DNA of 64,000 nucleotides from Undaria pinnatifida (taxonomy: Eukaryota; Sar; Phaeophyceae; Laminariales; Alariaceae), in contig JABAKD010000009.1 in assembly GCA_012845835.1 (NCBI GenBank), forward strand, positions 5,122,904 through 5,186,903, given 5' to 3'. Below the pieces are notes generated by a model that saw only the letters and a list, made by a program, of their open reading frames with translations, searched no databases and was not told where the DNA came from. Positions 11,060 to 53,892 of the stretch are shown here, one piece after another (positions within the stretch are counted from its first letter, which is position 1; each line of letters opens with the position of its first letter). The position numbers and the translations under genes are program-made.

Positions 11060-11383
11060 CAGCAGTAGTTTTCTTCGGAGAGTCGACCCCGGCTGGCACC
11101 CAGATCACGATGTGGTCATGGTACTCCACCGGTGTAACTCTTCTGGATTCTAGCGAAGCCATTCCCAACGCCGTATCGAGGGTGGGCCTGTCCCTCGCAG
11201 CGGCCGCCTGCACTCCGCGCACAACCTCTCTGGTCGGAAACTTGTCGCTCTCAGCGAAGATGACCCCCGCGTGCTAAGGTTCGCGTGCACGCCCACCGGA
11301 CCCCCCGGCCGCGTCACTCAACGCAACAGCAGGTCCACCCAGCAGTTCTCGTCGCCAGGGATGTGCTCCATAGTGTACGGGAA

Positions 11384-11725
11384 CTATCCAAGAAACACGT
11401 GCCATCCCTGCAGACGTTGTGCCACCGCCTTGGATGTGGGCGCTCCGTTCGCGCTAAAAATATACGCGAGGTTCCGATGGTCACGGTGAATCGCCACACC
11501 ACCATAAAGCAGGTATGACAGCCGCTTGAACGTGCTAACGATCCCGAAGCCATCCTTGTCCACAGTTGCCCATCGCTCCTGCGAACCCCTGAAAGGCCGA
11601 TTTAGAAATCCCAGCGGCTCATGGGACACGTCTTCGATTGCAACACTTCCCCTCAAATCGACCGTCGGAACATGGGCGATGCAGCTCCCCCAAAACGAGT
11701 TACTCGCATCATTGAACATCACCAC
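11384..11725 (-). pseudogene. Gypsy RNase H domain
   Basis: MVMFNDASNSFWGSCIAHVP keeps the first catalytic Asp in the gypsy form FxDAS. ERWATVDKDGFGIVSTFKRL is the E...D/E-E-a block, and LYGGVAIHRDHRNLAYIF ends with the DH-N-L motif. Open over 113 codons, but without an intact upstream frame. Confidence 0.85.
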
Positions 11726-11889
11726 AGGAAATCCTGGCTATAGATTATTCAAAGGCACCGCTTCGCTCACCCGTAGTCGCACAGCATCCCACGCGGCCGC
11801 ACGCTCATCCGTCCACTCATTGCTGCCCATAGCACGGCGCGCCGCCACGCGCTTGGTGCGCCGTGTGTTGCACAGGCACTAATCGAGCA

Positions 11890-12837
11890 GGCCCTGCAAC
11901 GGCGTCTCCACCCCCACGAGCTCAGACAGAGACGACCGCATCCAATCGATGGATTGAAAGAACTGCATGCACTCGCTGGCGGTTTCCGGTCGACGCAACT
12001 TACGCAGTCCCTGGGTGCGCTTGGGGTCGTGGCTCATCGCCTGTCCCTATAATATTTTCCCGAAGCACTTCATTTCCTCTCGGACGAAACGGCGTTGTCG
12101 GCGGCAGAAAGAAGACCACGCTCCAGCACGCGATCCAAAATCGCCAACAACCACTTCAAAAGAATTTCAGGTGTTTCCCCCAGATCGCGATGCCATCCAC
12201 TCACACTAATCATACCTTCTCATCGATATACCCCTCCAAGACATCACCCATCGTCGCCTGGAAATACCGGCAGCATTCAGCACCCCCGGAATAACACGTC
12301 GCGGCTTGAACAACCCCTCCAAAGTGACCATGGTGAACATCTCCTGGGCATCCTCACTCAGCGGCACCTGCCAGTAGCCTTACAGTATACCCAGCGTGCA
12401 CCATGTGGGAGCACCAGCGAACAGAGACGCTTTGTTTTCCAGGTTGGCACGGGCATAGCTGCCCGTGCGATTGTGTCGTTGACCGCCCGATGGTCCGTAA
12501 CCATGCGATAAGAGTTGGATCCCTTAGGAATCGCCGTCGTCACGCTTCCGCAGATCGCCTGCGGGTTTCAAAACACCTTTCCGGTTGTGTTCAAGTTGTC
12601 CATCATGTGCTCCTGCAGTCATGCCGCCATTACTGGCGGAGATTCACGCGATTTCGCCAGCACCGCCCTTGCACCTGGTCGAAGCCGCACCGCCATGGAC
12701 TCCACGCGCGCAGGTGGGTCGCCCAACAATGCCCGGCGGAACACGTCAAGGTGCGTGCGAAAACCGATATTACGCAGCATCTTGGCATATTCTGGCGGTA
12801 ATTCAAGATCAACAGTGTCACCGACCGCCGTCTCCAA
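11890..12837 (-). pseudogene. Gypsy reverse transcriptase fragments
   Basis: DLELPPEYAKMLRNIGFRTH (12.8 kb) is the pol linker. IPKGSNSYRMVTDHRAVND (12.5 kb) is the RT fingers motif (family K-x-x-xxR-x-x-D-YR-x-LN). KRTQGLRKLRRPETASECMQ and FFQSIDWMRSSLSELVGVET (12.0 kb) are the thumb/connection. The active-site DD box was not found intact. Confidence 0.8.
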
Positions 12838-18189: not shown

Positions 18190-18450
18190 TATTGGTATGG
18201 ACCTTTTCGTGCACGAACGCCCGGGGCCCGATCACCCGGAGATGGCCGAGATAGGCATCCTTGTCGTAGAGCATCTTGTACGATCTCCAGTTCTGCTGCT
18301 GCGTTCCACTGGGCGGCTTCGGGCGTAGCCCGCGCTTCCTTGATTGTCCGTGGAACGTTCGGTTGCGCTGTGCCCCCAGCGTACGCGTATTCCGTGAAGC
18401 CGAATGTGCTGTCCCTGTGGGCGACGTCGGGAAACTCCCCCTTCACGCCT
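18190..18450 (-). pseudogene. Inverted chimeric fragment of copia pol
   Basis: Read on the minus strand, this block joins two distant pieces of the same element: 18200-18276 is the reverse complement of about 18872-18950 (integrase), and 18279-18450 that of about 19776-19930 (reverse transcriptase start). It replaces the expected gag/protease region. Both pieces are slightly diverged from their direct copies. Confidence 0.85.
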
Positions 18451-19791
18451 AAATCTCTGGGCGGGTTCAAATACGCCGTCAACTTCGTTGACCAGCAAAT
18501 CAAGTGGAAGGAGGTGGTTCTCATGAAGGACAATGCTTGATCTGTGGACGCCCTTGCGGTGTTCGTCAAGGAGACCGTGGTTCCTACCGGCGAGCGCATC
18601 CATACCCTCCGCGGGAACCTCGGCACGGAATTCACGAGCGCGGAGTTCCGTCAGTACTGTCAAGAAGTCGGCATCAAGCTGGCGATTGCCTCTCCGAACT
18701 CCCCTCAGCAGATCGGAGCGAACGAGCGTGCGGGCCGGATGATTTTGAACATCGTGCGCTGTTTTCTCGCCCACTCGACACTTCCGAACTTCCTTTGGGG
18801 GGAGCTGATGAAGACGGCCGTCTACCTGAGCAACCGGACTCCTCACGCAGCTTTGCAAAACGGGACGCCGTACAAGGCGCTCTACGGCAAGGATGCCTAT
18901 CTCGGCCATCTCCGGGTGATCGGGTCCCGGGCGTTCGTGCACGAAGAGGTCTACACCAATACGCTGGAGCATCGTGCTTGGGAAGGCTGGCTCGTCGGAT
19001 TCAGCGAGGAAAACAAGTCTTACCGGATCTACAACTCTGAGACGTTACGTGTGCGGGTGAGTCAAAATGTTATCTTCATGGAGACGCCTTCTGTCGCGCG
19101 CTCGTTGGACGCGCGCGGTTTTGACGAGGAGGAGTTCACGTACGATGACTACGACGACATGCTAAGAGACGTGCGAAACTGCACTTCCAACCACTCGGCT
19201 GATTCGCTCTTTCCTGACCGTGCCGTTGGGGATGCCGTCGGGGATCTGTCTGCGATTGGGCTTCTCGAAAAAAGTTGTGAGACAACCTACCGTGATCTTG
19301 GACTTGCACCTGCTGGATCTACTCCTGCCAACGATGCGCCTGGGATTGCTGGTGGTACGCCTGAGAAAGATAGCCCTGCCTCGCCGGGGGGAATCAGTCC
19401 CGCGGTGCCGGTCAACGGTGCGTCTTCTCCTGGATTGCCATCTGGTCCGGCGCCGCCGCTTGGTTCATCGCCCGCTGGTTCTGCTCCGTCTGGTATTGCG
19501 CCGCAGGGTGGTCCTGTGCGTGGACGCGGTTCGTATCGTGGTGGACGAGGTTCCACGCCGACGCCTGCCGTCACCAGGTCTGCTTTGCGTGGTGGATCTG
19601 CGCAGGGAGGCATCACGCAGCGCGGTGGACGTGGCAGCGGGTCTGCACGTGGACGTCGTGTTGGAGGTGGACGAGGTTCCACGTCGACGCCGGCAACCAC
19701 CAGGCCTGCTTCGAGCGTACCCACTGCAAAGACCATCAGCGAGCTTCGTCGCCTCTTCTACGCGTTTACCGTGAGGGGGGGGGGTTCCTGA
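18448..19791 (+). pseudogene. Copia integrase, truncated, with Gly/Pro/Arg-rich tail
   Basis: Starts within the core (GGFKYAVNFVDQQIKWKEV), is interrupted by a TGA at 18538-18540, then runs open for 415 codons: ALAVFVKETVVP, HTLRGNLGTEFTS, SPQQIGANERAGRM, FLWGELMKTAVYLSNRTP. The second catalytic Asp (family R-S-D-x-G-x-EF) is Asn here, and the catalytic Glu is present. The last ~150 residues are low-complexity Gly/Pro/Ala/Arg repeats (GGRGS, RGRG), the variable region between integrase and reverse transcriptase. Not functional. Confidence 0.9.
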
Positions 19792-19795
19792 CGTC

Positions 19796-20516
19796 GCCCA
19801 CAGGGACGGCACATTCGGCTTCAGGGAATACGCGTACGCTGGGGGAACAACGCAACCGAATTTCCCACGGACAATCAAGGAAGCGCGAGCCACGCCTGAA
19901 GCTGCCCAGTGGAACGCAGCAGCAGAACGCGGGATCGCGAGTGTTAAAGATCGTCAAGTTTACAAGCTTGTTCCGCGCTCTGCCGATCCCGCTGGACGGA
20001 AGCGAATCGATTCGAAATGGGTGTTCAAGCGCACGGCGGACGGCTCCTTCAAGGCTCGTGTAGTGGCTCAAGGTTGGAACCAAGTTCCTGGCCTTGACTA
20101 TGGCAGCATCTACGCCCCGGTATGCATGATTTACAGCGTGCGGATCATATGCTGCATAGCCGTGCCCTTCGGCCTGCTTCTACACCAGATGGACTTCTCA
20201 ACGGCCTTCCTATGCGCGGATATCCAGGAGTTGGTGTTCGTTGAGCAGCCGCCTGGCTTTGACGTCAAGGACAAGGAAGGACGGAGGTGAGCTAGTGATG
20301 CAGCTAGAGAAGAGCCTTTACGGGCTGGCCCAATGCCCCTGAAACTAGTTCAACAGCATCGATCCCACCCTTGTCGAAATCGGCTTCGTTCCGCTTCAGT
20401 CCGACACGTGTGTCTACTTGTACGTCACGACGGTGTTCGGATCTACTTGATCCTCTACGTGGACGATCTCCTTCCGGCCAGCAACAACTCTGACGCCATG
20501 GCGATGGTGAAATAAA
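19796..20516 (+). pseudogene. Copia reverse transcriptase, broken
   Basis: VYKLVPRSADPAGRKRIDSK, WVFKRTADGSFKARVVAQGW, QMDFSTAFL and LVFVEQPPGFDV are the copia RT opening blocks. The frame is lost near 20288 (TGA). The YVDD active-site box (LILYVDDLLPASNN, 20447-20490) survives in another frame, which ends at a TAA at 20513. Confidence 0.9.
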
Positions 20517-20535
20517 AGTTGAAGCAGTTTTCAAG

Positions 20536-21469
20536 ATGACCGACATGGGAGCGGTGTCGCTCGTCTTGGGCATGGAGATAAAGCGAGACCTTGAGCGTGG
20601 CACTCTCACGATCTCTCAAAAGGCTTACCCCATGTCCATCCTGGAGAGGTTCGGAATGTCGGAATGCAAGCCGACCAACACGCCGGGGTACGGTCCCGAA
20701 CTCTTCAACCAGCAGCCTGGCAAGACTCTGCTGGACGAGGAAGAAAATAAGGGCTACCAGGGCATCGTGGGGTGCCTGATGTATGTTTCCCAAGTGTTAA
20801 GGTACGACATCATGTATGCCGTTGGTCAACTGGCTCGCCCGATGGCGAAACCCAGCAATATCGACATGGTGGCGGCGAAGCACACTCTTCGCTACCTCGC
20901 GAGGACAACCGACTTTAGCATTACGTACAAGAGGGGAGGCTTCAAGCTTGTTTGCTTGCAGTCTTTTCGGACTCCAACTGGGCCAACAACCCGGACAACG
21001 GAAGGTCACCTCATGCTACTTGTCGATGCTGTGCGATGCGCCAATTGGCTTCAAGTCGGGGCTGCAAGGTCTGACTGCCATGTCGACCATGGAGACGGAG
21101 CTGGTCGCGTCGGCTTTGGCGATGAAGGAAGCAGTGTTCTGCTCAAACATGCTGACTGAGCTAGGGTTCGGCAACGACTTCGCGAACGTGCCGTTGTACT
21201 GCGACAACACAGCGATACTGCACGCGCTGGGAAACCGCTCCGTCAGCTCGAGGACGAAGCACATCGCGCTGCGCTTCTTCTTCTCCCGAGAGCTCGTGTC
21301 GGAGGGAAGGATCTCCATCGACTACATTCCGACCGACATCAACCCTGCCGTCATCGGCACAAAGCACCTGAACAAGCACCGCTTCAGGAACCTGCTGGAC
21401 ATAATCAGCAACTTCAACGTAAACGACTTCATCAACAGCCAGTTCATCATCAACAGCCAGTTCAGTTAG
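20536..21469 (+). pseudogene. Copia RT C-terminus and RNase H, broken
   Basis: SLVLGMEIKRD, YPMSILERFGM, NKGYQGIVGCLMYVS and RYLARTTDFSITY belong to the RT connection. RNase H follows in a shifted frame with the copia hallmark LTAMSTMETELVASALAMKE and the KHIALRFFFSRELV block, ending FRNLLDIISNF. Frameshift around 20950-21000. Confidence 0.9.
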
Positions 21470-31310: not shown

Positions 31311-33100
31311 TTCGTGTGTATGGATCACGTTGTTGGCTGATATGATGTTTTTGCTATAATGTATGTAGGGTCACAACGTCAAGCGCGTAGGACAATATTT
31401 CATCTCCGCGAAGATTCAACTCTTCTTTGGTGGTCCAGTGGTACATACGTTTGTAGTTCCGTGTATTTTTAGTCATTTAGCGTCTGGCATGAACGCTGGA
31501 AACACGGGCCATATACAGTGGTAGCTCGACATGGTGCAGGCTGGTGTTTTACTATGCATCGTCCTTTCTAAAGCTACTGCTCTGGGTTTTACAATATGCT
31601 GAAACAATAATGTCTGTTGAGGCTCTACCTCTGTGATGAGAGGTGCAGAGGCGGCTCCGAGCGTCTGTGATACCGTTGTGATGACTGTGAAAAACAAACT
31701 TGACAAGGCACACGATTGGCCAAGAGTGGAGGGAAAGAAGAGGAGAAAATGATACATTAGTTCGAGAAGGCGAAGGGGTGATAAGGAAGGGCTGGCCTTG
31801 TTGGCCTACTCATCTCGAGAAGACGCGCACACTACGGTAGATTTACTATTTCGGCTATTGCACTGGCTGATTGACCGTCCTACAGCAGCATTCCCTGAGA
31901 CCTTGGCGACAAGCCAGATGCTCTGCAACGACTCCAACGTCCTGATGCAGATTTTTTTTATGTTGAACAATGTACGAGATGACGAGGAGGAACCACATGG
32001 TAATCTCGCCGCATATTCATTCATCCGATGTCGAATTTGGATATCAAGGTACGTAGTGTATCACTGCTGTAGTGCATAGTGACTACACATAAACTATATA
32101 TACGTATGGACCTCAATGTCCGTATTGTATTACGCCACCCTTCTGGGAAGTAACTTTGCTAGAGGAACATTATTCTCAAATACCCAGACAATAAAAAGTA
32201 TGTATGAAACGATGTATTCAGTATTGTGTACAAACAGCGGCAATTGGATATAATCATCTCACAAAAACTACCCGTGGTACCACTCCGTCGAACAACAAGC
32301 TATTTCCCAGAAAATTAGGCACAAAAAAGTACTTGCGGTGCGCCTACTGCACCCCCTCAAAATAAATAAGAAATCGATCAATTTCGAGCACTTCCGTGAT
32401 ATCGAGACTAAGACGCCCAACCTGCTCGTGCATACCGACTGCCCATCAAGTAGATCCTTATGAACCTCAAAGTCCATATTTCACGGGGCTCTGTCGATCG
32501 TAAATTTAACGCGAGACATACTTGTATGTGCAGATCAGGATAACGTGGTACGAAGGCAGAGATATATTGACGACGTCAAACTCGACGCCACAGAAACATT
32601 ACGATGAATGTGCTACATCACCTTGTACACGAAGCGGCGGCGGGCGTCGTGATACCACGGACTGGAGAAGCATTCCCTCATGCGTAACAGCTCGGACGTC
32701 CTGTACCTCTCCACCTGCCCACCGTGCATTATATTATGTTGGCCGATCATGATGCAGTCGATCATGATGCAGTGACATGTTTTTGAAGCAATGCTGAACA
32801 TCCCCGCATAAGTACGTGGTGGTTGGAATTTGTGTGCACCGTGGCTGGAATACAAAACACATAAATGACACCCAACAAAACTTGACGATTGACAACAATT
32901 CCTCCATATGCGGGAATGTGTAACTGCTTGCGATGATGTGGAAAGTTGCCGACCTTTTGCCTAGTTCCAAACTTGATTGAATACTTGTCGACACAATCGT
33001 AAATTCATCATTCTTTCGAAGCATAGAAGCACTACACTGCTCAGGGTTCTACCCATATTTAATCGGCGGCATACCTGACATATGTGTACCTGTACTCTAT
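31310..33100. other. Gap between HoxX and FolD reading frames
   Basis: If the genes are separate, this 1.8 kb plus the adjoining repeat must hold the HoxX 3' end and FolD promoter; I see no obvious poly(A) or promoter motif. If fused, it is an intron comparable to the other large introns. Only weak candidate exons (31629-31664; around 31910-31950) are present. Confidence 0.5.
31629..31664 (-). other. Candidate 36-bp linker micro-exon between HoxX and FolD
   Basis: A 36-base open block reading TLGAASAPLITE, flanked by atcacag| and |GTAGAG and in phase 0 on both sides. It would join HoxX exon 11 (spliced at 33115) and the FolD first exon (acceptor at 30991) without a shift. Short flanked blocks occur by chance, so this is only a hint supporting a fused gene. 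Confidence 0.2.
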
Positions 33101-33207
33101 TAGGACGGAGTTACTGCAGATATTGAGGCTATATGTTCACTCCCAGCCACCAAAGGATATACATCGTTGGAAACATCCATCTCCTTGGCACGAAGCTCAG
33201 CCCAGAA
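33100..33207 (-). CDS. hoxX: HoxX exon 11 (C terminus or junction to FolD)
   Basis: FWAELRAKEMDVSNDVY matches the family pattern YRAEELxRM...FY and justifies acceptor tttatag|TTC after a 126-bp intron. The frame then reads YPLVAGSEHIASISAVTPS and stops (TAA TAG at 33102-33097). A possible donor, GCA|GTAACT, at 33115/33114 would skip the stop in phase 0 and allow fusion to the downstream FolD exons. The sequence cannot decide between the two. Confidence 0.6.
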   Translation of the reverse strand, partial: FWAELRAKEMDVSNDVYPLVAGSEHIASISAVTPS

Positions 33208-36200
33208 CTATAAAGGTTCCCTTTCCTTAGACTTCTCTTGGTTTTATTCTTGATATATAATGTGTTTGCGCGTGGTCGATATTCAAGCTCAAGCTGCAAA
33301 TCGTCGGATGGTAAATATAGTAACTATTTACACCAACATGCAGACACTCGCCCTCTCGAACCAGGCATCGTTTCTCTCGTGCTGCTTTTCCGAAATGATC
33401 TTGTCGCCCAGCCCGCTCGCCACCAACGACTCGGCTCGATCTCGAATGGCGCACAACTGTGTCAAGGACGAAGACGGCACACCGGACAGGTCGACGAAAA
33501 CGTCACATGGTGACGCTCAAGAAGGACACCCGCGAAGCACGGGACCGCTCGATAAGGACCCAAACCGTACACGGTGCCTCTCGGCAAGAACGCAATCGGC
33601 ACACAAAGCCCGCTCGATCAGAGCGAAAAGGGCACATAGGACTGCTCAATAAAGAAGAAAACACCACATGGAACCGCTCGACGAAGGCGCCAACAGTACA
33701 CGGGATCGATTGACAAGAAAAATAACGCCATACAGAACTGCTCAATGCCGACGAAAACGCCACAAGGGATCGTTTGGTACAGACAAAACAGCAAAAGGGA
33801 CAACACGACAAGGAGGAAACCCGCGCGTCATGGCCAAGTGACAAAAAATATTATTAAACCGCCCTGAGTGGCTGAATGTCTTAGCAAAATGGTTATGCTG
33901 TAGGACTGCTGCGTACCTCCTCGTGAAAGCTAGAGCTCGGAGAGTACTGCAATAAACCGTCCACCATGCCCATAGCGTGCGCTTGATTGGCCGTTATCGG
34001 CCGCATAGCGTCGGTAAGCTCCATCGCAGCTTCCCTACCTACCCTTCCTTGCAGGAAAAAAGTCCAGTACTCTCCCCCGGTAAGCTCCATCGTCTTGTAA
34101 CAATTGCGCGCAATAACAAGAATGTTACCGATCAGTGATGGGAAGGATGTGCGGGGTCGAGAGGCGGGGCGGGGGATTATGTGGAGGAGGTTAAAGGTAA
34201 CAAGACGCGTGCTGAGGCTCCCTGCTTGAGGAGCTCTCTATTTCACCTAAACTCGTATTTTTGATAAATAAATGGAAGCGCGATCGGACAGAGAACTTCT
34301 ATGGCCTAGGTACACTTGAAACAGTATAGTAAAAAACGCCTTCCAACGATATTTGGTGGCCCCTCAGTTGAGGAGTCTTGTTGATGAAAATACCTCGGCG
34401 AAAGCGTGCTACCCCCATCGGAGCACAAGCCACGTTATTGTGGTGGGTGGGGGCCTCACAGTTATATGCGCAAATTTTCGAATTGCCTTCACCTGGGACC
34501 AGATAATACCTCGTCCAAACAGTACAGGATACTGATATAAGAAGCAGGGATACTAACCCAGGTTGAGTTTCTGATTGACAAGGAGAGCATTGTACACCAA
34601 CTTCAACCATTGCGGCTGCGGGGTTTCCTACTTCCCTAAACATTACCAGCCAGTCTTTCTTGATACCTTGTATTCGACTAGATGTCCTGTTCTGCGGGGA
34701 TACGGCTGTATCCTAGTTCAAGGATATCGAAACTTACACCGAGAGAAACCCCTCAGAAGCGGTTGCTGGGTGTATAGTCTATGTTCTAATAAGTACTGCA
34801 GCTGCTGGGGGACTTCGTGATCTTCAAGCGCGAGCATGCCATAGTGGTGTTTCCAAGATCCTCTAGAAAACCTGGCAACCTCTAAGCATCATCACAAAAA
34901 AACATTGTACCCTGTATTGTACGTGCAGGAAAACGATATAGCAGCTATAGAAATTCTTTGTCTAGAACCTACGTTTCAACCCAACCTTCACAGTGTGCAA
35001 GGTTCGCTACGCACGAAGTGGAACGAACTTTGCATGGTATCACGTCGAGCGAAGCAAACTTCTTGTGTACGATGTTGCCGAAAAGAGCTCAGTTTAGCCT
35101 CGCAGGCCCGAATCCCCGTGTTCCTTACTCGCGTTCGACGACCGGAACTTCCCGGAAAGAACGATGAATAAATTCGAGTATTTGTGTGTGAGTGCTTTCA
35201 TGAGGTTCGACTTTTCGGCTCCCAAACAACGCGTACAATTAACGGCGGTTATAATATCCATCAGCGCGGTTTCCTACCGAGAGCTACAGTGCACCTTGTA
35301 GTGGGGGTTGATGATGACGTTTTCGTGCGCCCATACGACGTCCGATGCCATGGCTGCCATCGCCCCGCCCGCGCCGGCGTTGCCCCGCATGACGCTAACC
35401 ACGGACTTTTTCGTGATGGAAAAGGCTGCCTTGATGGAGTCGTTGATGGCGTTGATGTTTAGCCAAGATTCCTTTATTGGTTAGAGAGAAAACCAACGAT
35501 ACAAAAACGGTGAGGGTAACTTACCACTCCCTCGAGAAAATGGTTGACATACAGTGTGAATCATGTATAACCTTGACCTTTATCCTAATCCTAACACCAG
35601 CCTTAGCAGTAAGGCAAACCCTGGCCCTAACCCAATTAAACCCAACCAACCAATATATTCTCCACTTCGACTCGTCCACAGTGTGGTTCAAACACACTAT
35701 CAAATAATCGGTACCCCCTACTAGAGGTCGAAGTCGATTTCCGTGGAGTGCGTGGTAAGGAAATGATCGACCGTCGAGAGGTTTCGCAGCGAGCTGCAAT
35801 CTAACGCTAGCCTTTGTCACATATAGGTCCATGTTGTCACACATAGTCCATGTTATGCGTATAAATGAAGTCAGGGGGGCTTTCCAAACAAATACTAAGT
35901 AACAGTACGGGGTGTCATGGTTCCAGGACTTGAGAAAATAGATCGACTCAATACATTCGTTGATTTCAAGACGATTCCAACCTCGACGCGAGAAGTACCG
36001 CCGCAAGCGATAAACCGCACAAGAAGTAGGCGTGGTCGTCGCGTGACCATCACTGGGCCGTGCCCACGCTAGGGAAATATGTAGTCTACGGGCTGTTGTG
36101 TTGACGACAATCCGTATTTTAGCAACAATGTCGTATCCTTGTGGTGACAAACGAGATTACCTGCAACAACACCAAGCGTCCCGATACAGGGAAGCTGATA

Positions 36201-39200
36201 GTGTAGAACGTGCCATGTGATGGGAAACAATGTCGCAGTCTTGCGCTCTAATGCATTGATCCGATGTCCAAACAAAGATACCCAGTTCACTCCTCCTAGT
36301 AACTGCAAGTCAACTAGTTACGCATGGACCTCAAAGTCAAGGTTCAAATACGTCCCCTTGATGATAAGCCGGCAACTAGAGGAACTTCATGCTCACATAA
36401 TCAGAGTAAAAATGCGACCACACATTTAGGCCTGAGTATGAACAGCGACAATGATACTAGTAATTCAATTGCCAGCGAGAAACACTCTAGAAAAGAAAGA
36501 GCAAACGCATCTGCTAGAGGTTCAACAGCGTCCATGGTTTTGGGTTTCAGTGTTGCAATGTTTGATGCGATCGTTTGATTTTTCCTTAAGCCCAGCCATA
36601 CTACTTTCGATCCATTGCCTATGAATACTACATGCTACGATAGAAGTACCACCTTTCGTCTGAAATGGTTTTTGGATGACGGGACTCCTGAAACTCACAA
36701 CGTCGTCGAAAATAGTTTGGTTTTCTTGCATAATTCCCGTTGAATACTTGGGCCATGGGATTTTTCATCTGGTAACAGTTTTATTTCCCTCCAATACAGC
36801 TTTTGGGAGAGGTATTAGGCTCCTAAAATGAGGAAACCCGGAAAAAAAACGTGGTGTACCTCCATCGTAGCACGCGTCGAAAGGCAGACACTGAATAATA
36901 ATAGCCGATGACTCAAGAAATCGCCATTCTAAACGTGGGAGGGGGCACAAACAGCACCGCTCCAATCCCTGGATACGCAGCAGATTTGAAACCACAACGT
37001 TTTGTTACCATATTACGCAATGACACCATAGATACCTTATGTCGCTGTCATTTGGACTGACCCACTACACTGTAGCATCGACGACAATCAGCCATGCTAG
37101 AACATAAATAAGAAGCCGCTGAAAGCTGTCAGGATATTTTAATGCAAGAGGAACTGAATGTACTATATGAAGCCCCTGCAAGCTGTCAGGATATTTTTAG
37201 CGCAAGAACAACTCAATAAGCTATAGCTGGTTATGGTGTTGTGTATGTTAGTTTTCTGCATCCCACTATCATATTTGTTCTACTTCTCCAACTCCTTTCT
37301 TCTCGTAACTTAGATCCGGGCCCACACAGCGGGCATTTCTCCCCCTCCCCCACCAGCATATGCTTATGGCTTTGCTTGGGTACGGAGCCGTGCCGTTATT
37401 GCAGGCATGTTGTATTTCTGTGCCGCCAGAAGTTAGAAGAAGGCAGCGTTAGGGGGTTCACTCTTGGGTGCTTCTTTTTTTTTGTGGCTCAGAGCTCCTC
37501 GCGCGAGTGGCCACCGCTTCCGTCCTTAAGGGTAGCGAAATGCACCGCCACGGCCTATTTTTGGTACGTAGCACGCGATATCTACTTTCAAGTCAGTTTT
37601 TAAGAGGTCTAATGTATATGAGAGATAACGTGGCAATTCACGCTGCTTTTACCCTACCATACATCTACTCTACTCTACTCTCCGGCAGCAGCTGCATGCT
37701 ATACTGCTGCAACGCCGTCGCAAGCATCCTAATAGCTTCAAAAATGCACCATACTTTGAAGTATGATAACAAAATCATACTCTAATCATACTACTGTAGT
37801 TACGCTCCACCACATACGAGCTAAAAGAACAAGTCGGAAGAAAAGCACAATAGTTGATATCGTTGTTATTAATAGTATAATTGCCATTCGACAAATGTAG
37901 AACGAGCTTCAACGTCAATTGTGTACGCACATTCCAATAACGACGAACCATAATTAAGGCAAATCCCCCCTGCCCGAAAGGGAAAACCCGTTAATGTCTC
38001 ACCATTTGCGGGTCTGTGCTGGCTTCGATTGTGTTTAGGTTGATGCCATTTCCGTAGCTGTGCTCGCCGCCCATGAGCAGTATGACCCTGATATCATCTC
38101 TTTGGCCAACCTCCTGAATGGCCGCTGTCAGCCGTTCGCACTGAGAGGTGCTCGCGGCGCCGTTGTAGAAGTCGCTGTGCACGTAAGCGATTTCGTTCTC
38201 GACGGACACCCAGACCTTTCGTGGTGTGGGCCACAAAACACGGAGAGTATGGCAACCATGGCCAGTCAGTAGGCATTTGTTGCGACGCGTGGCTTGCGAC
38301 TTCTTCGTGGTGAATAAGGAATGATATATCATATAGGCCGCTCTAAGAGCCGTACCAACGCATTTATAAACAAGCCGAACGCTACATCCGGAGCGCCACA
38401 GCTGTCTGAATGGGTCCTCCGCATTGCGGGTTGGGTACAGTTTTCACGCGCAGAATTGACGTATAATGAACCGCCCTTTCGACCCTCATACTAACTACCG
38501 TAGGACAACCGGGAGTCACCGACCTATATTCTTCATGAGAGCATGCACACCCCTTGGCACGGGCGATTTGAGTATCACACACAGGTTGCAAATATGACGT
38601 TCGACGTAACCCTCACTCCAGCAGCTTAAACGTATAGACTATTTTGTTGTTATCGTAAACACACAAGGCGAGACCGTGATAAGGTTGTTCTTGATGTTAT
38701 GGTCATGCGACATGGCAGAACCGGAAGCTAAATGTTCAAAGCGTTGTTGGTGGAACTCACTACCGCTGTAACGCAGCGAGCGGCCGGTCGTGGAGCGTTA
38801 CCTTTTACTACGCCAGAGGAATACACTGCCACTATCTTACGCCGCATGGTTACGAGCTTTCAGCTGCTAGTGTGTACTACGCACTTTAGGGTGTCTACCA
38901 ACCATCAAGATCTCGCGTCACCTGCGCAAAACCACCAGTCCTCTTGTCGTCGATATTGCGGTACGTTCAAATCTACGCATTGCACGTTTCCGATCGAAGT
39001 TCAGGTGCTATGGATGATGCGCCTTCTTTTTAACAACGACCACATTTGCGTGCCCAAACGTATATCGAGACCACCCGGAATATGTGAACCTAAACGATTT
39101 ACGCTTCGGATCGACGCTACCATGTTTCGGGTGGTGAGTCTTCGTGTCAGATACTTACCGTAGGCTTTCAACCGAAGTGCAAAAATTATGGTGGTGCGAA

Positions 39201-42200
39201 TTCCTTGCACCAATCAATATATACATGTACGGCCATAAACGGCTTCAGTACGATTTCAGTACCTCCTGGAATGTGGACGGTCTCTCTCCGAAGGGCACGT
39301 AAAGAGGAGGCTCGGGGATACAAGGCAGATCATCCACAACGTCCTTTGGGAGAGCCGATGTCGATGGCAGCTTGATAGAAGGAACTTGGCATTTGTCGAC
39401 GGATTTGCTGGTGCTGCTGTGGTTGATGTTGCTGGTGCGCTTCATGTGCGAAATCCAGAGTCCCGTCCCGTCCGAGCACTTGAAAAGAACAGCTCCGTGT
39501 CGTTTACCTGTTTTCGCATTCAGGAATAATTTCGAAATTCTTGACAAATACAGTACGGTTGTAGACTATAGGCGCCTTGAACGGCTCATTGGTCCGCACA
39601 TAGTCACAATACAATGGTAAAGAGTAACCACGCTCTTAGGCGCTGTTGCGTAGCAAAGATCGAGATCCGAAAACAGCCACGTGGTGCGATACTTGTAGTG
39701 GTATCCCTTTATGGCCAAAGCATTTCCGACCGAGGGGACTCCTCAACGAAAGAAATACCCACCCACTAGTATTGGAATTTCACAGCATTTCGTGTTCTAT
39801 TGTTTTCTTCACCTAGGCTACGGGGTTGTACATCGGATTGCACCTTCGGATTTATAACCACATGCAGGTGTGGGGCTAAGCATGGACCTGGTCGAGTGAG
39901 GAGCCTCAGAAGCCATATGTGCAGCCCTACCGTGCAGCATATATCAACAAGTTGGTCTCACCCACGGGCTCCCCGCATTCATCGCTCGCCCTTGTCAACA
40001 CCCCTTCCGTTTCGCTGGCGCCACCCTCCCCTTGGGGAAAGGCGCCAAAAAGGCGGTACTTCGTGCCGCGGATAGTGTGCGGACATCCGGGGCTCGAATC
40101 GCTGAAGCGCACGGTTCGTGCCGCTTCTTCAGCGGACATTGTTTCCCAGTCCACGGCGCGGTCTGCTAGCTTCATGGTCGGCCGCAGGGTACCTATCACG
40201 TCGGAATGGCTGGAAAGCAAGCATTGGCGGAGGCAGTCATCGTTTTTGACACACAGCAAGTAGTCTTAGCATAGAGTGGACAGAGGCATCCTCTAATTTT
40301 AATATACACCAAGCGATTCTTTTAGAGCTCTGCAATCAGCGGTATATGCAAGCAGTCCATTCCACACGATTTCTATGACGGAGTTTGTTCATGTACACGA
40401 ACAGCGACGAGGGGGGGGGGAGAAGGGTTGGCGTCGGGGTAACGTCAGGGCTGCGTTGGCTCAGCGGGTTGTCGTCATCTTCCTACCACGATGCGACGTT
40501 ACCCTTACGCGATGGCGTAGCCATTGCAACCATCACCGCTTATTATGCAAAGACTTTAAAATGCCATACACAAAATGCTAAATGTAACCTTCTAGACGTA
40601 AATGTGAGAATGGTTACAGTTTCGTATTAATAACCCAGCTGTCCACATATCAACGTCCGGAAGAGGGTATAAAGCAAGCGACGCGGAACCGGTACGTAGT
40701 TTCTGTATATTCCATTGACCATCCCTGATTGTTAACCCATCCCATACCGGTATACTCGTATTCCATCACATAGTGCTAACCGGTGCCATTTTTATAACCC
40801 CTCTCATATTGCCAACCCATTCCATATCGCTAATCCATCTCACATTCCTAGTCAACCCCGAAATGTTAATCCACACCGTATCGCTGACCCATTCCGTATT
40901 GCTAACGCATCCCATGTTGCTAGCCCGTCCCATATGGCTAGCCAATGATATATTGCTAACGCATACAGTACCATGTCGCTAAACCATCGCGTGTTGACAA
41001 CCCATCCCATACTGATAGTCGTATCCCACATTATTAACCTATCTCATTCTACGAACCTATCTCATGTGGACCCGTCCCGCATGCTGCTAACCCATCCCAT
41101 ATTGATAACCCATCTCATGTTGCTAACCCATCCCATTTTGCTAACCATCCTACATTGCAACACACATTCAATTGTGCTATCCCGTCCCATATTGTCGATC
41201 CCATATCGCTCACGCAGCCCTTTGTTGCTAGCCCATTCCAAATTGTTAATCCATCCAATAATCCTAACCAATCTCTTGTTACTTATTCATTGCAAATTGA
41301 TAACCATTCCATAATGCTAACCCATCCCATATTTCTAGCCCACTCCAAATTGCTAACCATTAAATATTTCCAATACATAATATATTAATACCCCGCCCTC
41401 CAATACTAACACGCATCCCATATTGCTAACCCATCCCATATCGTTAACCCATGTTGCTAACCTGTAGTCCAAAGGCCGTGGCGGAACGCCATGCTGGAGC
41501 CTCGTGAGGGCAGCCCGAACACCAGTCAGGGCCGCTGGCACACATAGCTGCGGAATCGAGTTGTGAAACGATAAATAATATCAGAATCGAGGAATCGGGC
41601 AGCGTGCAAGTATCGGGCGTGAACGACATTGCTCGACAATCTACTACAACATATGTGGCAGTACACCTTCACCACAAGCACGGGGCAATAATGGTTACAA
41701 TAATGGCTATGTTACGTGGTGTTGTTTCGACGGATGCACTACAGCAGAAGATGAGCGGGTTTGGCCAAATATGATCCTGGCGAAGACCGACAAACGGAAC
41801 ATGCAGCAAAACATGTAGACTACGGAAACAAATAATCCTTCGATTGTCAACCAAAATTTTCCACAATAATAATGTTCATGCAATAACCGCTTGTATGCTG
41901 AAGGTCACGAACGCACACAGTTGGACAGAAAAAATAGTGATACGCATGCATCACATGACCGCGTGTGTGCTAAAACTCACTCATGCTGGATACTGTCGGC
42001 TGAAAAAAATAGCAACTTAGTAATAGCGTCAATAATGACCGCTTGTGCGTTCGTACCTTGTTGTAGAAAGCAGACTTTGTGAGCGTTGACGAGTGCGGTA
42101 CAGAGAAGTTGCACGATCTCCACACGGCCCCGGCGTCCATTTCTTCGTCAGCCTGAAGAATGGTTACCCCCCACTGTGGCAGAGAATCTGACCAAAGCAA

Positions 42201-44438
42201 GGGGGCACATTGCTTCAAAAGCGGCAAACACGAATTTCTAACTTTCAGGACTTTCCGCGCGGTCATGACCCGGTCCGCGGATCAGCAGGCTTTACTAAAC
42301 GTCGCGGGTCGAGTCGGGATAGATCAAGAGACGGTCGAACCCACACGGGTCGGGTCAGGACGTTTTCGCAAAAGTCACGGGTCGGGCCGGGTCGCCCTGG
42401 CCCGATCCGACCCGCGAGCCATGATCCGACCCGTGAAAGGCTCCGCTCATTTTGATCGCGATAAAATTAGAGACCCCTTAATATCACGTTGAAGCGAATG
42501 TGACGTCTCTGAAACGGCCTTTCCGCACGCAGAAATATTCAACAGTCGATTTTTTTTTTAGTGAACTAAAACCGCAGAAATGATGCATGAGTTTGTCGTG
42601 CAGTCAAAACGAAACGCAGAAATCACACTCGATGTTTTATAGTTACAGTGAGACCGCTTCAGAAAAAGAGGTACTTGTTCATGTTCAGCACACAAACCGA
42701 ATCAAGATCAGCGTCATCAGCACCCTCAGCATCCTCAGCACAGACAGGATGACCAGCACAGCTAGCCGCTGTGTCGAAAGCAGGTAGCACAGCACAGCCT
42801 GCGCACATGCCGTGCGTAGCCAGTGTCGGGGATGGGAGCCGCTCGCCGGGTTCGCCGGGTGGGTACTGCTGCTCTCGTGTGCCTGCTGCGATCCGAACTG
42901 CTCAGCATGTCGAGACAGCAACTACGTCGTGGCCTTGGTCAGCAAGTTAAACGCTGTGGAGAGGCCGGGGGGTTGGCCAACGATCCCGTTGCGTAAGTGT
43001 GCGAAGGAAAAGGCGGTCGCGGCCAACTTTGCACGCTCTCGGTACTTGAATGCACTACAGTGGCGGTCCCTCCGAACGCAGATACGACGGTAGTAAGCGG
43101 GGTGGGTCCCTTTTTAAGGGATTTTGTTGCCGCGCCTCGGGCGGGCACTTGCGCGAGTGACCCCCCTGTTCGTTTTGGTGCTGCTCCAGTAGGTTCTTCT
43201 CCTCTGTCCTCGATCGATGATGTGCCGGGGCACATCATCGGTCGAGGACAGAGAGGATGAGCTCACCCGACCTTGTCGCTTTTGCGACATTCATCTGCAC
43301 TGGAACAGTAAGCTGCGCCGCGCCAAAAAAAAACTCGGCTGAAGGGAGTTTTGTCGGTGAGGTGTTTGAAACAGTAATTGGTGAGCGGTGAAAACCCGGG
43401 AGCTGAAAAAAGGCTACCCCCGCCCCTACCGTTGCATTGATCCTCTGCAGCGCCGGAAGGCGCCAGCCGTAAGTGCCGGCACTATAGTGGCAACCGGCAC
43501 TACTCCGCAAACTGGTACTACTGGCTGACCCCATAAATATGAGCCAAAATATTTCACAGGCACTGTAACGGTCAACCGGCACTAACCAACCGGCACCATG
43601 GCGACAAACCCACTGTGATAAATTTCCTACCTCTGAGCGCCCAATCGATGGAGCTGATGCCCCTGTCCCCGCGGACCCCTGGGTGCACGATCAGCACTGG
43701 ACAAGTCAGGTTATTCTTCCACAAGCGGTCTGGCACGCGCTTGGTGAGGAAGGGTGCCACTATGGCGTCTGGGCCGAAGGCGTCGTGGGCGGCTAGCATA
43801 TCCTCCTCTCCTCGCGCGACGTGTAGCATAACCTTAATTTGCAAAACGATAAAGTTGCGGACGGGAGCAAACACTGTAGACTAAAGACGAACAGCAAGCA
43901 AGAAGTTGTCACAATCCGCTCACAATCAACCAAACACAGACGGGATGTGCTTCCAAGTTTAGGGAGTGAGAGCGCCACACACAAAGCGTTGGCCATAGTG
44001 TTAGATGAACGTGTTTTGAGCGTTTGAGTGTTTGAGTGTTCTCGACACGTCCTACGGTAGACGTGCACCGTTTTTTTTTTGTGAGGTCCTTCACTTCAGC
44101 GGCTCTATGGCTCACCCAAACACTGGCTTTATTTTAGCAAACCGAACGTGCAATCCGACCAAGAAATCGGTGGCGTCATTATGAAAATAATATCCTTTCG
44201 CAAACAAGAAGAAGAGCATTCCGACCATTTTGGGTCAAGGAGTGTTAAGAAGCCCCATCGTTCAGAGCAGGAAATGCCAAAAAGTCGTTTTCCTTAATGC
44301 CCCCGGTCGTATGATACGGTACCATACGGTAACACCATCACCATCGGACTGCGCATCGGTTCATTTGTTTCCCGATATCAGACTGATTCCACGATAGCCC
44401 CGGGGCCTCAAAAACCATCGATTTTCTTTAACGAACGT

Positions 44439-44515
<77 letters not shown>

Positions 44516-45316
44516 GGCTGCTCGACACAACAAGGAAATACACCGTTGAAAATAGCGTATATTTTCCTGTGTGCAAAGGTCTATCGATGGATGACGTCGG
44601 GGTGTCGAGGGACACCGCATTTCAGGAGATGCAACCGGGAGCCGGTTTTGAAACCGGCGATTTTGTTAAAGAAAATTTGGTGGGCTACCGTAGTAAGACT
44701 ACCGTAGTAAGACGCATCAGTTTGTGTGTGAGGCACAGTATAGAGCTCCCCAAGAGACCGCCCTCACAAACCCTACGTATAGACTATATGTGCATCTTCC
44801 CTCTACCATACCACGCATCACCTGAGTTACTATGTAGATAGACCCACACTCCCGTGTCGTTTTCAGTACACAGCACCGGTACGTACCACGCTTTCGTGCC
44901 GAAATAACTAAGGTTTTCCACAAGCAAATCCACTTCTCGCGGATCGGGTCGGATTAGCGTGACCCGGCCCGACCCGGCCCGTGAGATTCATAACTCTCCG
45001 TAACCCGGCCCGTGAGGCTTCTAACACCTCCTGCCCTGATCCGGCTCGACCCGCGAGGATACGAAAATAATTTTACCAGGCCCCACTCCATCCGCGAGGT
45101 TATGAACAACTCCTGACCTGCTGAGAGCCATGGAAATACCCGCAACGTCACCTGGTGGCCCTGCTCCGTAAGGTTTAGGTACAGGGCCTGACTCATGCCG
45201 TTGTGGGCGTTGGTCAGGAACAGGATGCGCATAGCGCGCGCTCTGGGTGACATCGGCAGCCTGCGCAACGTGCTCGTACTGTGTTGGTCCGGTACTCCTA
45301 GCCGGGGCATCTCCAT
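33100..45316 (-). CDS. hoxX: HoxX/HypX-like protein, full length, 11 exons
   Basis: Homologue of bacterial HoxX/HypX, which converts the formyl group of 10-formyl-THF, via formyl-CoA, to CO for the [NiFe]-hydrogenase active site (known for the bacterial family). Joining 45316-45140, 43832-43631, 42187-42057, 41547-41462, 40209-39962, 39507-39263, 38215-38003, 35471-35295, 34093-33917, 33456-33334 and 33207-33100 gives an uninterrupted 628-residue frame with GT-AG borders and matching phases. Numbering from this start, the formyltransferase-like domain begins at MRILFLT (29) and holds VHPG-x-RGDRG (108-117, His109) and EEMDAG (Asp144). A formyltransferase C-terminal-like part follows, then a crotonase/enoyl-CoA-hydratase fold with GNAGAGG (464-470) and HYK...GGEYW (491-503). 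No stops or frameshifts are seen, so the gene looks under selection. Start, last exon and final stop are the uncertain parts; it may continue into the FolD gene downstream. Bacterial contamination is excluded by the ten introns. Confidence 0.9.
33334..33456 (-). CDS. hoxX: HoxX exon 10 (C-terminal helices)
   Basis: Residues 553-593, helical (IRDRAESLVASGLGDKII, then EKQHERNDAWFERAS). It corresponds to the C-terminal helical part of HoxX (pattern RA..LA....L..L...K..R...D). Acceptor cttgacacag|TTG, donor TTG|GTGTAA followed at once by an intronic stop. Confidence 0.8.
33917..34093 (-). CDS. hoxX: HoxX exon 9 (GGEYW, active-site Glu)
   Basis: Residues 494-552. MELTGGEYWTFFLQGRVG is the HoxX hallmark (bacterial form: LYGSEYWTYLLPRRVG), with Glu501 nine residues after Tyr492. 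Then ITANQAHAMGMVDGLL, the crotonase A-x-x-x-GLVD block. Acceptor tgttacaag|ACG, donor GAG|GTACGC. Confidence 0.93.
35295..35471 (-). CDS. hoxX: HoxX exon 8 (GNAGAGG, active-site Tyr)
   Basis: Residues 435-493. ESWLNINAIND, then RGNAGAGGAMAAMASDVVWA (second crotonase glycine-rich loop) and NVIINPHYK. Tyr492 falls in the HYK motif that is invariant in HypX proteins I remember. Separated from exon 7 by the largest intron (2.5 kb). Acceptor aataaag|GAA, donor AAG|GTGCAC. Confidence 0.93.
35472..38002. other. HoxX intron 7 (2.5 kb)
   Basis: Largest intron. Contains a 209-codon minus frame (36150-35521) without motifs, diverged repeats with GTGCTACGATAG-type words near 36600-36890, a doublet AGCTGTCAGGATATTTT (37123 and 37178), and nothing recognisable as a nested gene. 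Confidence 0.6.
38003..38215 (-). CDS. hoxX: HoxX exon 7 (crotonase domain start)
   Basis: Residues 364-434. VENEIAYVHSDFYNGAAST is the HoxX-specific beginning of the enoyl-CoA-hydratase-like domain; DIRVILLMGGEHSYGNGINL is the crotonase oxyanion-hole loop (G-xx-x-x-F/Y-xx-G). Acceptor ccacgaaag|GTC, donor ATG|GTGAGA, both phase 0. Confidence 0.93.
39263..39507 (-). CDS. hoxX: HoxX exon 6 (GLWISHMKR, interdomain linker)
   Basis: Residues 282-363. GTGLWISHMKR matches the end of the C-terminal formyltransferase-like domain. It is followed by a low-complexity Ser/Asn/Lys linker not typical of bacterial members, then IKLPSTSAL and PPLYVPFGERPSTFQE, the link into the crotonase domain. Acceptor cgaaaacag|GTA, donor GAG|GTACTG. 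Confidence 0.92.
39962..40209 (-). CDS. hoxX: HoxX exon 5 (formyltransferase C-domain start)
   Basis: Completes residue 199 and codes 200-281 plus one base. Contains TLRPTMKLADRAVDW, the conserved LRP-M-ADRA-DW block, and FSDSSPGCPHTIRGTKYRLFG, the substrate-side loop of formyltransferases. Acceptor gctttccag|CCA, donor GTGG|GTGAGA. Confidence 0.92.
40730..41461 (+). repeat. Degenerate minisatellite (CTAACCCATCCCATATTG)n
   Basis: About 40 units of 15-18 bp with consensus TTGCTAACCCATCCCATA, much diverged. It fills most of HoxX intron 4 (41461-40210) and runs up to the 5' splice site, whose GTTAGCAACATGGG is itself a unit on the minus strand. Confidence 0.92.
41462..41547 (-). CDS. hoxX: HoxX exon 4 (short linker exon)
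   Basis: Residues 171-198 plus two bases: an alpha-helical segment (PAALTGVRAALTRLQ) followed by PPRPLDY, matching the end of the HoxX formyltransferase N-domain. Acceptor tccgcag|CTA, donor TACAG|GTTAGC. The donor sits at the edge of the 0.7-kb minisatellite that fills intron 4. Found by phase and family pattern, because the exon is only 86 bp. Confidence 0.85.
42057..42187 (-). CDS. hoxX: HoxX exon 3 (catalytic Asp motif)
   Basis: Residues 127-170. WGVTILQADEEMDAGAVW is the HoxX form of the WG-T...DxGD/DAG block of formyltransferases; Asp144 is the likely catalytic acid. Acceptor ttggtcag|ATT, donor AAG|GTACGA. The codon split across intron 2 reads Asp. Confidence 0.93.
42260..42430. repeat. 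Degenerate CCGACCC-rich repeat, copy 2 (HoxX intron 2)
   Basis: Dense GGTCGGGTC/GACCCG words (for example CGGGTCGGGCCGGGTCGCCC), related to 23420-23640. Confidence 0.65.
43201..43256. repeat. Near-perfect palindrome in HoxX intron 2
   Basis: CTCTGTCCTCGATCGATGAT... is followed after a 2-base centre by its inverse ...ATCATCGGTCGAGGACAGAG; arms of about 26 bp with one clear mismatch. The flanks (42.9-43.2 kb) are unusually GC-rich. Confidence 0.85.
43631..43832 (-). CDS. hoxX: HoxX exon 2 (HPG-GDRG motif)
   Basis: Codes residues 60-126 plus one base. It contains APFLTKRVPDRLW and the HoxX signature VLIVHPGVRGDRGISSIDWA, with His109 in the place of the catalytic histidine of the formyltransferase fold. 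Acceptor aattaag|GTT, donor AGAG|GTAGGA, phase 0 to 1. Confidence 0.93.
44441..44515 (+). repeat. (CAT)25 microsatellite in HoxX intron 1
   Basis: Uninterrupted 75 bp. Reading frames over it give poly-Asp, poly-Met or poly-His and are meaningless. Confidence 0.99.
44935..45115. repeat. Degenerate CCGACCC-rich repeat, copy 3 (HoxX intron 1)
   Basis: GACCCGGCCCGACCCGGCCC and CCGTGAG/CCGCGAG words with CTAACACCTCCTG; it ends within 25 bp of the HoxX exon 1 donor. Confidence 0.65.
45140..45316 (-). CDS. hoxX: HoxX exon 1 (start of formyltransferase domain)
   Basis: Residues 1-59 as counted here. The family N terminus is MRILFLTNAHNGMSQ at 45232; it is preceded by a 28-residue Arg/Ser/Thr/Pro-rich stretch starting MEMPRLGVP at 45316, which could be a targeting leader. 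The frame stays open upstream to an ATG at 45433 with a hydrophobic run (VPSVALLFMLPSLTIAYT), but that part lies in a locally repeated sequence. Alternatively an acceptor (ctgggag) just before 45317 would make this an internal exon. Donor CGG|GTATTT, phase 0. Confidence 0.8.
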
Positions 45317-52795: not shown

Positions 52796-53543
52796 GGCAG
52801 GATGATGACTTGGGTTTGACGAATTGTTTTATCCCACCTAAGTGGACCGTAACTTCGGCCGATTCGTTCGGTTTTGACACACGATAAATAACAGGGGAGA
52901 GCTGAGCTCTGACGGTACACGGGCCATGCCAAGGGCTAACGAGCTTGGGGTTTGGTCTGTCAGTTTCGTGGTACGGGCGATGCAGTAATACTTTGTCGCC
53001 CACTTTAAAACTGGGGAAAGACAATTTTTTGTTTTCGACGGCTTGTTTGTCCGCTCGTTCTTGTAGATTGCGACGGGCTCACTCGTACGCGAGCTGCAGG
53101 TTTTCTACTGTGCGAGACTCCCCACACTATCTTGTGTTTGGGCGTACGGCTACTCTCCCCGTCGAAGTCATCCTCGGAGTTCCCTCTACTGATGCACCAC
53201 AAAATAAACTCGACTACTCACGTCGCACAGTAGAAAACCTGCAGCTCGCGTACGAGTTAGCCCGTCGCAATCTACAAGAACGAGGGGACAAGCAAGCCGT
53301 CGAAAACAAAAAATTGTCTTTCCCCAGCTTTAGAGTGGGCGACGAAGTATTACTGCATCGCTCGTACCACGAAACCGACGGACCAAACCCCAAGCTCGTT
53401 AGCCCTTGGCATGGCCCGTATACCGTCAGAGCTCAGCTCTCCCCTGTTATTTACCGTGTGTCAAAACCGAACGAACCCGCCGAAGTTACGGTCCACTTAG
53501 GTGGGATAAAACAATTCGTCAAACCCAAGTCATCACCTGCCCA
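52796..53543. repeat. Inverted duplication (fold-back) of integrase sequence
   Basis: The left arm (about 52796-53114) is the reverse complement of the right arm (about 53224-53543), roughly 320 bp each with few differences, around a 110-bp unduplicated spacer that is also integrase. On the minus strand the left arm encodes the same peptides (FPSFKVGDKVLLHRPY, NPKLVSPWHGPCTVRA). Confidence 0.85.
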
Positions 53544-53892
53544 TGACTTTGAGGCACTCGATGACATGTTCCTCGGAACCACCCTACCCATCCCTGATCT
53601 TGATGGCTCAGTGCACAACGTCATTATCGGCCCGTATCTCATCGAAGCAATCGATGGTCATAAGCGGGGGGTAGGTGCAGCGTCGGTGGAGAATTTCCAA
53701 TACCACCTCAAACTTAAAGGTCAACCACCACAATGTGGTGTATGGCGTCGCTACAGCATTCTCCCTCAATGCAAGGAGATGATCGAATCTTACCGTGCTG
53801 TAATTCTGTCACAAAATCCTTCGGCTTTCGACACTCTCGGGACGAAGAAGAGCACCTATTCTAGATCGGATCGCGATGAAGGTGACACGTAG
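53115..53892 (+). pseudogene. Gypsy integrase C-terminal region
   Basis: Open for about 260 codons: LVFGRTATLPVEVILGVPST (end of core), LAYELARRNLQERGDK, FPSFRVGDEVLLHR, NPKLVSPWHGPYTVRAQLSP and HLGGIKQFVKPKSS form the gypsy integrase C-terminal beta-barrel (family VGDxVxL...KLxxxxxGPYxVxxxxxxxxYxV). About 110 further residues are less conserved. The catalytic core is missing, so it is a fragment despite the open frame. Confidence 0.8.

Follow-up and report, generated by a model that had tools for sequence, protein, structure and literature searches.

An intron-rich HypX-FolD fusion gene in the kelp Undaria pinnatifida and a candidate hydrogenase-independent route to carbon monoxide

Why should the nuclear genome of a brown alga carry a gene for HypX (HoxX), a protein known as a maturation factor of bacterial [NiFe]-hydrogenases? 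The question is raised by a 64,000-nt stretch of contig JABAKD010000009.1 of Undaria pinnatifida (hereafter the window), in which a first-pass annotation had recognized an intact HypX homologue and proposed for it a role unrelated to hydrogenase, making formyl-coenzyme A (formyl-CoA) or carbon monoxide (CO). We found that the gene encodes, in one polypeptide, a basic presequence, then a complete HypX and then a complete C-terminal FolD (methylene-tetrahydrofolate (THF) dehydrogenase/cyclohydrolase). On sequence grounds, we consider it reasonably probable that the kelp protein is a hydrogenase-independent CO synthase, probably mitochondrial.

The HypX-FolD gene and its product

The gene lies on the minus strand of the window, from 46850 to 23995, on contig C61 of a genome of 511 Mb in 68 contigs. 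Its model comprises 20 exons (3048 nt, 1015 aa) with coherent phases, a stop-free reading frame and 19 introns, 18 of them GT-AG and 1 GC-AG. The first-pass annotation was thus right to describe a gene without lesions in an intron-rich nuclear setting, and the HypX content that it read stands; its span, 33100..45316, was wrong at both ends, and the FolD domain, the organellar-type presequence and two further copies were overlooked. Of the ten or eleven exons that it counted, ten, within 45316-33100, join in phase into an unbroken HypX frame. The eleventh, 33207-33100 (-), was rejected: among the tblastn matches listed for the brown-algal homologues P0001, P0002 and P0003 none falls there, and the segment lies inside the GC-AG intron, 33351-32715. 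Across this intron, exon 33456-33352 is followed by the next homologous exon, 32714-32622, and tblastn with the same three homologues showed that the gene continues in the 3′ direction. The GC donor (GCGAGT) has a GC counterpart at the same place in both paralogues (GCGAGT and GCGAGC), and the intron is therefore real. On the 5′ side, coding conservation across all three copies reaches an acceptor at 45350, phase 2, where the exon bearing MRILFL starts, and a separate presequence exon lies at 46850-46699; the paralogues support both. The presequence exon encodes MFRAKSAV..., and its phase-2 donor is compatible with the acceptor of exon 2, also in phase 2. An upstream exon coding for MFRARSA... 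is present in both paralogues, and the donor base pattern was observed in copy A.

The HypX identity proposed at first pass was confirmed. The HypX part matches the solved A. aeolicus HypX (6j0p) with 297 bits, the named sequence blocks are present, and P0001, P0002 and P0003 are 73-74% identical to the 925-aa core over 99-100% of its length, far more than chance would give (the brown-alga labels of P0001 and P0003, like the copepod label of P0035, are our own). PF00551 and PF02911 scored above cut-off on the N-terminal 10-formyl-THF transferase domain, with H167, D173 and D202, and PF00378 did so on the C-terminal crotonase-like domain, with Y550 and E559; the kelp protein thus retains all five residues for which catalysis in HypX has been proposed. 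The Tyr and the Glu, each conserved in 34/34 eukaryotic sequences compared, are required for HypX function in Ralstonia (PMC6802093). A structural model of P0003, which is 74% identical, shows the 6j0p fold across 554 residues, and as modelled the overall fold of the HypX part is that of 6j0p. P0003 itself (911 aa) comes from a source with contigs of at most 3,562 bases, which suggests a transcript, given the ~20 kb of introns in the Undaria gene. The likeness to bacterial HypX/HoxX (A. aeolicus 6j0p; Ralstonia eutropha) thus extends to both domains, the five proposed catalytic residues and the fold, but the kelp gene is nuclear, has 20 exons, and adds a presequence and a C-terminal FolD; moreover, the loop before the catalytic Glu is changed, several CoA contacts are substituted, and no hydrogenase or HypD was found in the kelp genome. 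The hydrolase domain of 10-formyl-THF dehydrogenase (1s3i, 7rlu) is homologous to the N-terminal formyl-THF domain, but that enzyme lacks a crotonase domain and its match to the kelp protein is far weaker (41 vs 297 bits). A plain enoyl-CoA hydratase without a formyltransferase domain, the alternative named at first pass, was rejected, as the protein has formyltransferase domains as well as residues specific to HypX, and NCBIfam hydratase models scored far below cut-off (best 54.5 bits vs 300).

The FolD domain is complete but, unlike FolD or MTHFD1 and MTHFD2, it makes up the last third of a HypX polypeptide. It keeps Y752, K756, Q805 and D828, which we take to be the Tyr, Lys, Gln and Asp of the bifunctional dehydrogenase/cyclohydrolase activity, and the structural matches include 4cjx and human MTHFD2 (6s4a), so that it is predicted to have the fold of known FolD structures. 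In another fused protein, P0005 (EukProt GILK01001918), the active-site Tyr of FolD is replaced by Phe and the Lys is kept. At the other end of the kelp protein, the first 50 residues are Arg-rich and contain no Asp or Glu, and this presequence is conserved in the paralogues. Presequences of similar kind, as judged by eye, occur in Ascophyllum (MFRSGAALLVGGRRAV...), Nematostella, Trichoplax, Branchiostoma and Hypsibius, and most bacterial HypX compared start at or near MRIL. The presequence probably serves mitochondrial targeting.

The domains map onto the exons, all on the minus strand, as follows. Exon 1 (46850-46699), with the predicted start, carries the presequence (MFRAKSAVTTTGRRAAAMVLHRRMGAVATTT..., 50 codons plus 2 nt), and exon 2 (45350-45152) a linker and the start of HypX (MRILFLTNAHNGMSQ...), the coding sequence upstream of MRILFL being conserved in three copies. 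The formyltransferase domain continues with His167 and Asp173 in exon 3 (43832-43631; HPGVRGDRG) and Asp202 in exon 4 (42187-42057; EMDAG); after exon 5 (41547-41462; HypX), its C-terminal (OB) subdomain occupies exon 6 (40209-39962) and, together with a linker, exon 7 (39507-39263). The crotonase-like domain appears in exon 8 (38215-38003; FYNGA), with GNAGAGG and Tyr550 (NPHYK) in exon 9 (35471-35295) and Glu559 (GGEYW) in exon 10 (34093-33917). Exon 11 (33456-33352) precedes the GC-AG intron, and exon 12 (32714-32622) ends HypX (VERYRTSELLRMRECFSSPWYHDARRRFVYK). This is the first of nine exons, 12-20 (32714 to 23995), that hold the HypX end and FolD, the last eight being FolD: exon 13 (30990-30785) starts it, exon 14 (30080-29960) contains Tyr752 and Lys756 (SSIYVDAK), exon 15 (29067-28975) Gln805 (VVQMPLP), exon 16 (28411-28306) Asp828 (KDADACHP) and exon 17 (27328-27117) the NAD(P)-binding part, followed by exons 18 (25886-25778), 19 (24744-24631) and 20 (24053-23995), the last with the C-terminus and stop. 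The intron just after exon 5 contains an 18-bp minisatellite of about 26 imperfect copies (GCTAACCCATCCCATGTT) at 40883-41358, with 41414-41452, and the intron between exons 2 and 3 a perfect TCA repeat of 25 copies (44440-44515). Elsewhere in the window, open frames at 18235-21466 (+) resemble, by eye, the integrase and reverse transcriptase of a copia-type retrotransposon, and frames at 52906-53889 (+) and 10178-10684 (-) resemble, again by eye, retroelement remnants.

Paralogues, selection and eukaryotic relatives

When the genome was searched with the 925-aa core, 49 exon-level matches were obtained, comprising the gene's own exons, two genes with HypX and FolD exons on C33, and, on C26 and C25, matches to FolD alone. 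The two C33 genes (about 14990746-15018589 and 15110850-15141055; loci L118-L125) each have a presequence exon, contain all 19 core exons, share the exon structure of the window gene and are stop-free in the aligned parts. One of them is 100% identical to EukProt P0004 (tag Undpi1) in 5/11 tblastn segments, covering 272 residues; the remaining 6/11 segments are 77-97% identical, where overrun past exon edges may account for the lower values. The genome is accordingly that of Undaria pinnatifida, the species behind the tag, or of an extremely close relative. By the Nei-Gojobori method, dN/dS (the ratio of nonsynonymous to synonymous divergence) between the window gene and copy A was 0.126 over 905 codons (HypX part 0.116, FolD part 0.144), and against copy B 0.110 over 907 codons (0.110 and 0.111), ratios that are approximate because dS of these pairs is 0.83-0.91; copies A and B gave 0.132 over 833 codons. 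Both the HypX and the FolD domain are clearly under purifying selection, and the earlier suggestion that the gene is probably used was borne out in this sense. Copies A and B are nearest to each other and form with the window gene a group (99/100) apart from P0001, P0002 and P0003.

Relatives were taken from three protein listings (the best 120 of 1,154, of 7,852 and of 331). Among the matches listed, eukaryotic HypX was found in brown algae, the dinoflagellate Togula, Chrysoparadoxa, the rotifer Rotaria, corals, anemones, Hydra, Trichoplax, Branchiostoma, the tardigrade Hypsibius, the gnat Bradysia, the moss Ceratodon, Chara and Chlamydomonas sp. UWO 241. A careful tree was built from 67 rows and 551 columns, with the long branches P0207 and P0063 excluded; in it a 100/100 branch separated 34 eukaryotic-type rows (22 named or from EukProt and 12 unnamed) from 33 bacterial-type rows; a quick tree of 103 rows (L083 and L088 gave no HypX frame) likewise parted 46 from 57 with 100%. 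Because this branch separates eukaryotic from bacterial HypX, the kelp gene is, by its placement, a member of one old eukaryotic HypX family and not a recent algal import. A tree with bacterial HoxX had been proposed at first pass; overlooked there were the wide distribution of HypX among eukaryotes and the automatic name that it already bears in animal records. These entries, called 'hydrogenase maturation factor HoxX-like' (Branchiostoma, Montipora, Hydra, Trichoplax, Hypsibius, Bradysia), are members of this family and also fall on the eukaryotic side of the 100/100 branch, but unlike the kelp protein they have no FolD fusion. Among the papers listed in searches of the open-licence literature, which does not extend to subscription journals or bioRxiv, none described eukaryotic HypX. 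The two Hydra proteins group with 8 proteins without species label (10 in all; 96%, quick tree).

Fusion to FolD was seen in brown algae (P0001 and P0003 included), in Togula, Chrysoparadoxa and Rotaria, and in several EukProt entries, and is absent from the named cnidarian, placozoan, amphioxus, tardigrade, gnat and land-plant HypX proteins. Among the eukaryotes of the 67-row tree, fused rows occupy several positions and unfused rows fall into two groups. In the FolD tree, a 93/99 branch sets 18 eukaryotic-type fused FolD and one free FolD of the Undaria genome apart from the other rows; this tree contains only that one free eukaryotic FolD, has very long branches (two or three), and lacks P0207, P0078, P0203 and L107.

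Hydrogenase, HypD and bacterial HypX

A genome search for the hydrogenase large subunit and the maturation proteins HypA-F had been suggested at first pass, and of the latter we covered HypD. In exon-by-exon profile searches of the 511-Mb genome, neither PF00374 ([NiFe]-hydrogenase large subunit; 1 candidate scored) nor PF01924 (HypD; 0 candidates) was matched; controls matched in 5/14 and 4/14 genomes, respectively. The same kind of search returned three FolD exons of the window gene among 12 FolD matches, which indicates that it can detect multi-exon genes. However, a search with PF00378 gave 17 matches, none on C61, and so missed the window gene's own crotonase exons, which means that divergent or weakly conserved families may escape it. 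HypD is strongly conserved, with a best match of 383-542 bits in each bacterial genome having one. The kelp protein is therefore HypX by sequence and fold, and a role as hydrogenase maturation factor was not borne out by the genome search; the hydrogenase-unrelated role proposed earlier fits this evidence.

Among bacterial HypX loci, HypD or a hydrogenase motif was present in the flank at 49/80 (27/43 among loci of at least 20 kb). For 20 of the other 31, HypD was sought genome-wide: 11 had a match and 9 did not, as against 7/7 matches in hydrogenase-linked controls, with the reservation that drafts and metagenome-assembled genomes (MAGs) may be incomplete. The nine were Peribacillus, four Lysobacter, Marinomonas, Methylocapsa, Andreprevotia and a Methyloglobulus MAG (L011, L021, L027, L029, L032, L034, L035, L044 and L047). 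HypX without HypD is thus not confined to eukaryotes, and HypX in bacteria could also have hydrogenase-free roles. In our trees the HypD-less bacteria do not form the sister group of eukaryotes.

Bacterial HypX-FolD fusions were found in a Chloroflexi MAG (L009, 580-3243; the same gene as L106) and in its metagenome relatives, P0185 and P0190 among them. In L009 and P0190 the domain order is that of the kelp protein, but the bacterial fusions have a separate origin, with their HypX among bacterial HypX and their FolD among bacterial FolD. In P0185 and P0190 the FolD Lys, presumably a cyclohydrolase-relevant residue, is replaced by Ile, and the cyclohydrolase function may have been lost. In Methylotetracoccus oryzae (L036; the same gene as L102), folD (9995-10957) lies 54 bp upstream of hypX (11012-12826), with no hydrogenase motif in the flank examined and HypD elsewhere in the genome.

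From serine to carbon monoxide

FolD converts 5,10-methylene-THF to 10-formyl-THF. In the route that we propose, the protein would be imported into mitochondria, where its FolD part would carry out this conversion on 5,10-methylene-THF from serine or glycine. The N-terminal HypX domain (His167, Asp173, Asp202) would hand the formyl group to bound CoA, the crotonase-like domain (Tyr550, Glu559) would decarbonylate formyl-CoA to CO and CoA, and THF would go back into the cycle. The fusion would keep 10-formyl-THF near its consumer. A single polypeptide would thereby cover every step between serine-derived methylene-THF and CO; its localization, formyl-CoA formation and CO release we infer from the sequence.

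Several observations weigh against this reading. The brown-algal loop before the catalytic Glu is ELTGGE or ELTGSE, in place of the usual GLYGSE. Tight CoA binding in HypX involves Ser194, Gln195, Asn306 and a basic patch; in alignments read by eye, A. aeolicus CoA contacts are replaced at R9 (Ala), R131 (Asn), R542 (Lys) and Q195 (Ser), and kept at Q15, S194 and N306; the A. aeolicus variant R9A-Q15A-R131A-R542A is reported to retain CoA binding. Many eukaryotic HypX are unfused, FolD adjoins or joins bacterial HypX at only 2/80 loci, and the case for mitochondrial targeting comes from inspection of the presequence by eye. Undaria is not known to have gas floats.

Alternatively, HypX may act as a 10-formyl-THF deformylase, with formyl-CoA hydrolysed to formate and THF, in which case the fusion would tune mitochondrial one-carbon overflow without CO. 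The altered loop near the decarbonylase Glu would be in keeping with this, and one-carbon units commonly leave mitochondria as formate. However, the Tyr and Glu needed in Ralstonia (PMC6802093) are conserved throughout the eukaryotic sequences, and we judge hydrolysis unlikely. That formyl-CoA is instead a product made for another enzyme, such as a CoA-transferase acting on oxalate, seems to us distinctly improbable: it would leave no reason for the kept decarbonylase residues, and in excerpts of PMC12134894 formyl-CoA is reported to remain bound in HypX.

Two further explanations concern the origin of the gene and its bacterial namesake. The bacterial family is defined by hydrogenase maturation, as the frequent HypD or hydrogenase motifs near its loci (49/80) attest, and a [NiFe]-hydrogenase in the alga might have gone undetected, as did the crotonase exons in the PF00378 search. 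Yet PF00374 and HypD were unmatched in 511 Mb by a search able to pick up three of the gene's own FolD exons, and HypD likewise went unmatched in at least nine bacterial genomes that carry HypX; this idea is largely refuted and has very little probability left. HypX being best known from bacteria, contamination or a decaying recent import might also be suspected, but 19 spliceosomal introns, two paralogues of the same exon structure, dN/dS of 0.11-0.13, full-length relatives in other brown algae and placement within the eukaryotic side of the 100/100 branch refute such an artefact. We therefore retain CO synthesis as the favoured function of the kelp protein.

Siphonophore CO is derived from serine, and its formation is blocked by an antifolate. 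A HypX route from serine through folate to CO would fit the CO of floats and gas glands. In excerpts of PMC9601103 the bulb of the kelp Nereocystis is described as rich in CO, and in those of PMC6820529 and PMC3916360 siphonophore gas glands are described as secreting it; folic acid derivatives in the siphonophore gas gland are named in the title of a cited work, and Wittenberg 1960, on the origin of the CO, is known as a reference-list entry. Hydra, a hydrozoan like siphonophores, carries HypX, and in cnidarians, whose HypX is unfused, MTHFD would provide 10-formyl-THF. No siphonophore HypX was named among the best 120 of 7,852 proteins, which include Hydra. Excerpts of a siphonophore zooid RNA-seq paper (PMC8844502) contain no mention of folate, one-carbon, hydrogenase or CO, and PMC5825054 mentions only the CO dehydrogenase of bacteria. 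We offer only tentatively, as a possibility that may well fail, that HypX is an old eukaryotic haem-free CO synthase, the source of CO in kelp floats and siphonophore gas glands, and that CO is a regular product of mitochondrial serine/folate metabolism in many eukaryotes. If the protein does make CO, the database name 'hydrogenase maturation factor HoxX-like' would be misleading for many animals, haem oxygenase would not be the only eukaryotic route to CO, a second one being supplied by serine via folate, and HypX would be a candidate source of the CO that fills kelp floats and that siphonophore gas glands secrete.

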